Shown here: piece by piece, positions 50,141 to 51,781 of the stretch
Layout: each line of letters begins with the position of its first letter
How positions within the stretch are numbered: the first letter of the stretch is position 1
Source: an uncultured Bacteriovoracaceae bacterium
Lineage (GTDB): Bacteria > Bdellovibrionota > Bacteriovoracia > Bacteriovoracales > Bacteriovoracaceae
DNA length: 53,883 bases
Assembly: GCA_938034385.1 (NCBI GenBank)
Contig: CALHLC010000047.1
Coordinates: 1-53,883, forward strand
Direction: 5' to 3'
Program-made: the position numbers and the translations under genes
Notes under the pieces: model-generated
What the model saw: only the letters and a program-made list of their open reading frames with translations
Told to the model about the DNA's origin: nothing
Database searches by the model: none

Positions 50141-50665
50141 TTATTTTTCGTTACAGATTTCATACTTATTGAAAATATACTTATTGTTTTTTTCAATATA
50201 CTGCTTCACCTGAGTGTATAATGTTGGGTCTGAAATCAGAGTTCCTAAAAATGAACAAAAAAGAGTTTTCTCAGCTTGCTCGATCGCTCTTGTTTGGTTT
50301 TGAGTATTTGTTTTTTTATTACCAACACTTTCTTCCTGAGTCTTCCAATCAAAGACGTCATACTTAGTATCTCTAGGCCATCCATAAAGGTGCTCATTAT
50401 AATAAAGAACAACTTCTCTATTTTCTAGATCATATAATTGCTGAGCGACTGCTTTATCTTTTACTGAAAAGTGAAAAGTTAATTGCTCTCCATAACCTGT
50501 ATCAAGAGTGCCTTCCCAAGTTTTAATAATCTTACCTTTTTGAGTAATCTTAGTAAGATTTCCTACTCTTTTCCCATCAGAAACGACGTAATCAAAAAGA
50601 GCATATTTAGCAACAAATCCTGCTGCAATCAGAAAGAGTAAAAAAAAGAAACCGAATTTTTTCAT
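50141..50665 (-). CDS. Small membrane-anchored conserved protein
   Basis: 174 residues with one N-terminal transmembrane anchor (about 5-27) and a compact outside domain. Segments VVSDGKRVGNLTKITQKGKI, FHFSVKDKAVAQQLYDLENR, VVLYYNEHLYGWPRDTKYDV recall a short conserved family of Bacteroidota membrane proteins with a 'SdGxRaGxlxkfsxkG' start, sometimes mislabelled as 6-phosphogluconate dehydrogenase. I am unsure of that link. The C-terminal 60 residues carry a Cys pair. It has its own promoter and precedes the ABC exporter by 13 nt. Confidence 0.7.
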   Translation of the reverse strand: MKKFGFFFLLFLIAAGFVAKYALFDYVVSDGKRVGNLTKITQKGKIIKTWEGTLDTGYGEQLTFHFSVKDKAVAQQLYDLENREVVLYYNEHLYGWPRDTKYDVFDWKTQEESVGNKKTNTQNQTRAIEQAEKTLFCSFLGTLISDPTLYTQVKQYIEKNNKYIFNKYEICNEK

Positions 50666-50693
50666 GATTTTTCCTTCATAACAAACACTTAAA

Positions 50694-50722
50694 TTTCTAA
50701 ACGATTATTAAGTATTTGTCAT
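50694..50722 (-). promoter_or_regulatory. Possible promoter of the small anchored protein/ABC exporter run
   Basis: ATGACA (50722-50717) and TAGAAA (50699-50694) lie 17 nt apart on the minus strand, giving a start near 50687 and a 21-nt leader with AAGGAA. The -10 match is moderate. Confidence 0.4.
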
Positions 50723-50743
50723 GAAGATTATATTTAAAAGGTG

Positions 50744-50938
50744 TTATTTAGCTAGAATATCGTAAGGTCTGATAGTTTTTCTACCATTAGCAGCACATTT
50801 CTTTTGAGCTTGATCAATTAGCCAATAAACATATTCATTCATAGCTTCCATAGTATCAGAAGATACATTGTATCCTTTACCCTTAAGAGCTTCTTTAGTT
50901 TTTGATCCTACTAGTAACATTTCTTTTTTCTTAGACAC
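50744..50938 (-). CDS. Bacterial histone-fold protein (Bdellovibrio Bd0055-like)
   Basis: 64 residues, one histone fold. After a short basic tail comes VGSKTKEALKGKGYNVSSDT (helix 1 and loop), then a long helix TMEAMNEYVYWLIDQAQKKCAA, then GRKTIRPYDI, the loop-2/helix-3 motif R-x-T-I-x-P-x-D-I typical of histones (Arg53, Thr55, Asp60). Archaeal and bacterial histones dimerise through the central helix and use these residues for DNA contact. A histone of this size is an abundant chromatin protein in Bdellovibrio. GTG 50938 is the start, with AAGGAG 6 nt before it. Confidence 0.9.
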   Translation of the reverse strand: MSKKKEMLLVGSKTKEALKGKGYNVSSDTMEAMNEYVYWLIDQAQKKCAANGRKTIRPYDILAK

Positions 50939-50980
50939 GATGACTCCTTTATAATTTATGATCGTTATTTGATTCCTAAA

Positions 50981-51008
50981 ATTCTAGTTAAGAATTTTTA
51001 AATATCAA
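50981..51008 (-). promoter_or_regulatory. Strong sigma70-type promoter of the histone gene
   Basis: TTGATA (51008-51003) and TAGAAT (50986-50981), each five of six matches, stand 16 nt apart on the minus strand. The start would lie at about 50974, with a 35-nt leader ending in AAGGAG before the GTG at 50938. The strong site separates this gene from the recO operon upstream and fits high expression. Confidence 0.65.
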
Positions 51009-51031: not shown

Positions 51032-51781
51032 TTATTGCCCATATATAAACTGAGAAGATTTAATATGATGGGGGTTAATTTGAAATTGCTGAATAAAGTA
51101 AGTGTAAATTTGTCGGCTTTGCTCTATGTTTAGTTGAGTAAACTGAGAATATTTCTTAAATGGAATAGTCATCACCTTTCTCAAATTCGTAAAAACTTCA
51201 CTAGGTCGATGAAAATCAGAGCAACTTGAACACTCAAAACCTCCATCCTTTACATTAAAATACGTTCCAATATTTAACTTATTTTTACAAACTATACAGT
51301 TTTGAAGGTCAGGAAATATCCCTAAAGAATAAAGTAGCTTTCCTAGAAACATAAACGTACTCCTATACATATCAAAGTCATCTTGCTTCAAGCTTTCATC
51401 TAGATAAAAGCAGGCATTTGATAAAATAGTATAAAGCTCTCCAACTTCTGATGATTCATTCATATCCTCAAAGGAAACATTATTAATAACCTCGCAAAAG
51501 AAGTTTAATAAAAAGTAAGCTTTATAATTATTCTCAATAGATAAATGTCTCCAATGAACACTCCATTCCTTGCAATTATAAATTCGAGATTTGCTACTCT
51601 CTTTTAGTGAAAGATTTAATGCAAAGCCAAGCTCAACTGTACTGGGTTTAGACTTGGCTCCTCCTCCCTGCCCACCAAAAAAAAGAACTGTTTTTTTCGA
51701 TCCATCTTCTAAGAGAACATCTGAGATGAGATGCCTGTCCTTGAAAATCTTTTTACTTAAAACCATCGCCTTAACATGCAT
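51032..51781 (-). CDS. recO: DNA repair protein RecO
   Basis: 249 residues. N-terminal OB fold (residues 1-75: VKAMVLSKKIFKDRHLISDV, then GGQGGGAKSK), then a helical region with LLNFFCEVINN and FMFLGKLLYSLGIFPDLQNC. The zinc-binding part is CIVCKNKLNI and ECSSCSDF. RecO loads RecA on gaps with RecF and RecR. Sequence conservation in this family is low, so the call depends on the overall layout and the Cys set. The first 25 nt overlap the end of the helicase gene. Confidence 0.85.
   Translation of the reverse strand: MHVKAMVLSKKIFKDRHLISDVLLEDGSKKTVLFFGGQGGGAKSKPSTVELGFALNLSLKESSKSRIYNCKEWSVHWRHLSIENNYKAYFLLNFFCEVINNVSFEDMNESSEVGELYTILSNACFYLDESLKQDDFDMYRSTFMFLGKLLYSLGIFPDLQNCIVCKNKLNIGTYFNVKDGGFECSSCSDFHRPSEVFTNLRKVMTIPFKKYSQFTQLNIEQSRQIYTYFIQQFQINPHHIKSSQFIYGQ

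Follow-up and report, generated by a model that had tools for sequence, protein, structure and literature searches.

Alpha3 histones are defined, in the main text of a survey of prokaryotic histones, by a truncated alpha3 helix of 3-4 residues and a shortened alpha2 (PMC11390915). In the same main text, face-to-face (FtF) histones are described as ring tetramers with a conserved Arg48 and Asn52 (HMM numbering), positively charged tails are reported for most bacterial FtF histones, and the bacterial dimer histones (HBb-type) are described as lacking both Arg48 and Asn52 (PMC11390915). FtF histones with predicted tetramers have already been reported there in the Bdellovibrionota class Bacteriovoracia, although the main text names only the group. 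Our literature search found no paper on an individual Bacteriovorax or Halobacteriovorax FtF histone.

Three histones with solved structures are the closest individual systems. In HLp of Leptospira perolatii (PDB 9QT0-9QT2), which wraps DNA as a ring of four subunits, R49, N53 and R55 are located at the dimer-dimer interface, R49 is part of a network contacting F63, the C-terminal residue, in the partner dimer, and R59, K21, K15, S14 and K17 account for 52% of the calculated DNA-binding energy (PMC12701072). HTkC of Thermococcus kodakarensis (PDB 9F2C) is a tail-less archaeal FtF histone, and HBb (Bd0055) of Bdellovibrio bacteriovorus (PDB 8FVX, 8CMP, 9EZZ) bends DNA as a dimer.

We analyzed a stretch of 53,883 nucleotides (the window) from an uncultured Bacteriovoracaceae bacterium (assembly GCA_938034385.1, contig CALHLC010000047.1). 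It contains a histone gene that joins the FtF kind already known from the class Bacteriovoracia. The features of the locus are as follows:

50141..50665, minus strand: gene of 174 aa, downstream, no confident family in the Pfam/NCBIfam search
50674..50728, minus strand: strong RNA hairpin (-24.5 kcal/mol, z -6.3) in the gap downstream of the histone stop codon, ahead of the 174-aa gene
50744..50938, minus strand: FtF-type alpha3 histone gene (64 aa, starting with GTG)
50747..50767, minus strand: C-terminal end, codons 58-64, with the single-turn alpha3 (58-61) followed by L62-A63-K64, from the alignment and the model
50939..50951, minus strand: ribosome-binding site AAGGAG and spacer before the GTG, from the sequence
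50981..51008, minus strand: sigma-70-like promoter TTGATA-N16-TAGAAT, from a motif scan, at a conserved position
51032..51781, minus strand: recO (PF02565), upstream neighbor, by Pfam match

The open reading frame at 50744-50938(-) encodes MSKKKEMLLVGSKTKEALKGKGYNVSSDTMEAMNEYVYWLIDQAQKKCAANGRKTIRPYDILAK. A previous reading of the locus, made from the sequence only, had placed AAGGAG before this 64-residue frame, and the motif is indeed found 7 nt upstream of the GTG; an equivalent ribosome-binding site also precedes most of the histone orthologs. The start is confirmed by an ortholog with 94% identity, the ATG of which aligns to this GTG. The gene is real and strongly conserved, and a search of the 2.67-Mb genome found no second FtF-like gene.

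The one-domain histone fold proposed in the sequence-only reading was corroborated by sequence matches, a profile, an AlphaFold model and Foldseek. In single-sequence comparison with solved histones, the protein matched HLp (9qt0, E 4e-11, 45.6 bits) and HBb (8cmp, E 8e-5, 25.9 bits), and the profile search suggested in that reading, run with a 59-sequence profile, gave E 5e-21 (77.7 bits) for HLp and E 5e-14 (55.4 bits) for HBb. The Pfam model PF00808 (18.1 bits, cutoff 21.4) and the NCBIfam model archaea_histone (13.6 bits, cutoff 50) both scored the open reading frame below threshold, and family models alone would therefore miss this histone. AlphaFold2, run on a single chain with the 59-sequence alignment as input, produced a model with a mean pLDDT of 89 and helices at residues 11-20, 27-50 and 58-61, that is, the short alpha2 (24 residues) and one-turn alpha3 (58-61) of the alpha3 histones. 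Foldseek ranked HLp bound to DNA first (TM 0.84/0.94, rmsd 0.8), followed by HBb and HTkC; over Foldseek and VIA-align together, the TM scores against HLp were 0.82-0.94. The RxTxxxxD motif, or RD clamp, reads R53-K-T55-IRPY-D60, with R53, K54, T55 and D60 invariant in the 59 rows; the R-T-I-x-P-x-D-I motif noted previously is thus present, its exact form being R53-K-T-I-R-P-Y-D-I61. A DUF1931 histone, which is a pseudodimer that has lost its DNA-binding residues, was ruled out, as the protein has a single fold, keeps the DNA residues and scores below the PF09123 cutoff.

The class of this histone cannot be read from its fold by itself, since the monomer Z scores from VIA-align are tied between HLp (8.6-8.8) and HBb (8.3-8.7). 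This near-equality, the SK.K motif and RKT loop common to both proteins, and the origin of the Bdellovibrio HBb in the same phylum would fit a bacterial dimer histone of the HBb type, bending or coating DNA as a dimer, but HLp is the closer match by both the single-sequence and the profile bit scores. Moreover, the FtF residue Asn51 and R57 are present here and absent in HBb, which is 30-34% identical, lacks the FtF interface residues and shows Asp at the N51 position and Met at the R57 position of the alignment. In a tree built from 83 rows and 60 columns, with long branches and weakly supported deep forks, the window histone was grouped with HLp and other FtF-like rows, whereas HBb, the ZZ histones and the doublet halves lay together, apart from it, in splits that are themselves weakly supported. 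The HBb-type assignment was rejected on the closeness to HLp and the FtF interface residues, and we consider it unlikely. An extension of the Bdellovibrio histones to another member of the group, as had been suggested from the sequence, is not supported; the protein falls in the FtF (HLp/HTkC) class, with the tree split weakly supported. The position of HTkC among the ZZ histones in the tree was regarded as a long-branch artefact.

HLp and the window histone are about 44% identical and superpose at an rmsd of 0.8, with an alpha3-truncated fold, the same S-K-K-K-R DNA residues, the RD clamp, and an interface Asn with a basic residue in both. The five DNA-binding residues S14, K15, K17, K21 and R59 of HLp correspond to S12, K13, K15, K19 and R57, which are the same five residues and hardly vary across the family. 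N51, the interface Asn (HLp N53), is invariant in 59/59 rows, as are R53 and D60, matching HLp R55 and D62. The two proteins differ by K47 in place of Arg, by three extra C-terminal residues and by Cys48. K47 occupies the interface Arg position (HLp R49), where the conservative change from Arg to Lys is seen in 16/59 rows, the other 43 having Arg. The extra residues L62-A63-K64, past alpha3, are absent from HLp and from a paralogous group of the family (kind B, below). Because of K47 and these three residues, the dimer-dimer interface must differ in detail from that of HLp. K47 was found only in chains running past residue 61 (16/44 extended versus 0/15 short, the rows being related), and since the Arg network of HLp contacts F63 of the opposite dimer, K47 and the extended C-terminus may be coupled, which is a lead and not a test. 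The Cys in the central helix, put forward earlier as distinctive, is a family trait, with Cys in 43/59 rows. HTkC, of the same FtF class and with a similar monomer (rmsd 0.9-1.1), is about 33% identical and differs in being tail-less and archaeal.

By homology to HLp, we infer that the protein likely acts as an FtF alpha3 histone, forming a ring tetramer that wraps about 60 bp of DNA and serving as an abundant, general nucleoid protein. Two monomers would pair into a head-to-tail handshake dimer, and two dimers would join through both ends (alpha2 end, L2 loop and alpha3) into the ring, with the ~60 bp of DNA wrapping its basic rim without sequence specificity. The histone would be expressed from its own promoter, probably at a high level, and would act together with HU/IHF proteins and with a histone doublet distinct from it. 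The genome encodes three HU/IHF genes, so packaging need not fall chiefly to the histone, which is not the sole candidate for it as it is in Leptospira, whose species are said to lack HU (PMC12701072). Such a role would place DNA-wrapping histones of the HLp type, not the HBb type, on that side of the predatory bacteria to which Bacteriovorax and Halobacteriovorax belong, beside HU/IHF.

In a sample of 115 genomes of the same family, 81 had a histone match at E 1e-3, and the gene is present in most genera of this family (Bacteriovoracaceae/Halobacteriovorax kin). Its closest relatives in named genomes come from uncultured Bacteriovoracaceae (94%), from Halobacteriovorax (89-90%) and from Bacteriovorax. 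The histones of the family are of four distinguishable kinds. Kind A comprises the orthologs of the window histone, with a C-terminus D-I-L-A or similar. Kind B, the starred clade of the 83-row tree, is a second FtF paralog, 48-64% identical, that ends in D-F like HLp and has no basic tail. Kind C consists of ZZ-finger histones of about 160 aa, and kind D is the histone doublet. The core of kind A is under strong purifying selection: in relatives of 82-95% identity, dN was 0.03-0.14 and dS much larger, giving a dN/dS of about 0.02-0.1 against most near orthologs. The kind B paralog (e.g., L045-L055 and L123-L154) coexists with a tailed histone in several genera and is absent from the genome of the window; its promoters are mostly TTGAAA-N16-TAGAAT-like.

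The promoter TTGATA-N16-TAGAAT lies 42 bases before the histone start. The near-consensus promoter of the sequence-only reading was exact at 51008-50981, but this site taken alone is no better than chance, as 2 promoter-like sites were found in 1.1 kb of AT-rich DNA versus 5.0 expected from shuffles; for a site in the 120 nt upstream of the histone, p=0.045. It is nonetheless conserved across genera, a near-consensus promoter (per-sequence p <=0.05) being found upstream of 24/39 A-type genes, in nearly all cases at a distance of 20-60 bases to the start and most commonly as TTGACG-N18-TA(A/G)AAT. In members of the genus, its position is kept despite diverged surrounding DNA. The codon adaptation of the histone gene (0.789) is the highest of the 53 window genes (next maximum 0.747) and is also above all 19 reference genes of the ribosomal-protein contig (0.62-0.77), bearing in mind that such scores are noisy for short genes, 4% of random 63-codon segments reaching this value. 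With the same reference, the doublet scored 0.667 and two HU/IHF genes 0.70 and 0.67.

A terminator scan at the 3' end of the histone gene was negative, the hairpin located there having no T-run. In two sister species, a hairpin with a T-run was read from the sequence at the same place, resembling a terminator. The hairpin at 50674-50728 is likely a 3' end or a stabilising structure, and its 3' arm touches the GAAGGA ribosome site of the next gene. Given the conserved promoter and the 3' hairpin, with its T-run in sister species, the histone gene is probably transcribed as a single-gene unit. This agrees with the separate transcription unit proposed before, the promoter being conserved and kept while the neighbors change outside the genus.

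The histone gene does lie between recO and an ABC exporter, separate from both, as previously described, although that description left out the intervening 174-aa gene, downstream of which the exporter is found. The order recO, histone, 174-aa gene and exporter is kept in the three nearest fetched members (L076, L086 and L091), recO and the 174-aa gene flank the histone in one relative outside the genus (L088), and the neighborhood is kept nowhere else among the fetched loci. A functional tie to these neighbors is thus unlikely, and one to recO or the exporter was dismissed, the full order being confined to the genus. No Rfam family was found in the window.

A-type relatives carry Lys/Ala-rich N-terminal tails, such as MAKKKATKKAAPKKAAKKAAPKKAAKKTAKKATKK, the longest having 41 residues in L090, with 20 K/R and no acid. 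Tails of this composition resemble the tail of eukaryotic H1. The tail of the window histone has four residues and is among the shortest of the family; the longer N-terminus reported previously is longer than that of HBb by a few residues, but not in its own family. A nearly invariant core combined with a tail of about 3 to 41 residues amounts to a natural experiment on the function of histone tails. The loss of most of the basic tail could also point to an FtF-derived fold that acts locally or in regulation, for instance at a few sites or as a partner of another histone, rather than in bulk packaging. The HU/IHF genes and the doublet encoded in the same genome would be compatible with such a role, as would the complete absence of the FtF gene from some genera of the family, which makes it dispensable over evolution. 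Nevertheless, the near-invariant core with all DNA-contact residues kept, the ribosomal-like codon usage and the conserved promoter argue against a local role, which we judge very unlikely.

At G000:C48:54182-54574 (-), the same genome encodes a protein of 131 aa in which two HBb-like folds follow each other; the N-terminal half carries RKTVMGRDF and the C-terminal half RKTVMDRD. This doublet was found in 42/125 family genomes, in about 12 genera (a 43rd match was partial, to a ZZ histone), and an alignment of 30 copies shows conservation of both RKTVMxRD motifs. Further copies include L003:1276-1671 (-) and the relatives L161-L189. Known bacterial doublets, of the DUF1931 type, are described as lacking DNA-binding residues in the HLp study and a review (PMC12701072, PMC13088155). 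A doublet retaining these residues seems undescribed in the main texts of the papers found, and its presence is more surprising than that of the FtF histone itself. One may speculate, with some doubt, that chromatin in this genus involves two histones, an FtF ring with an almost lost H1-like tail wrapping DNA and a DNA-binding-competent doublet acting on different DNA or in a different life phase. If true, the doublet would represent a bacterial class so far undescribed as DNA-binding.

A search of 50,697 phage records for a phage origin of the histone gave no match. Four relatives on viral contigs were all distant, none close enough to be its source: three contigs carry a single histone each (L156, L157 and L159), and one carries a 117-aa histone doublet with RKTV in both halves (L158:3007-3357, IMG/VR 3300019755_000003). 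Histones about 68-81% identical to that of the window were found in Omnitrophota-labelled MAGs (L095, L096, L102, L104, L106 and L109), which suggests gene transfer or misnamed bins. Finally, FtF-like histones were also observed in Acidobacteriota and Krumholzibacteriota (L125, L132, L133, L143 and L149), where their Lys/Ala-rich tails are 22-33 residues long.
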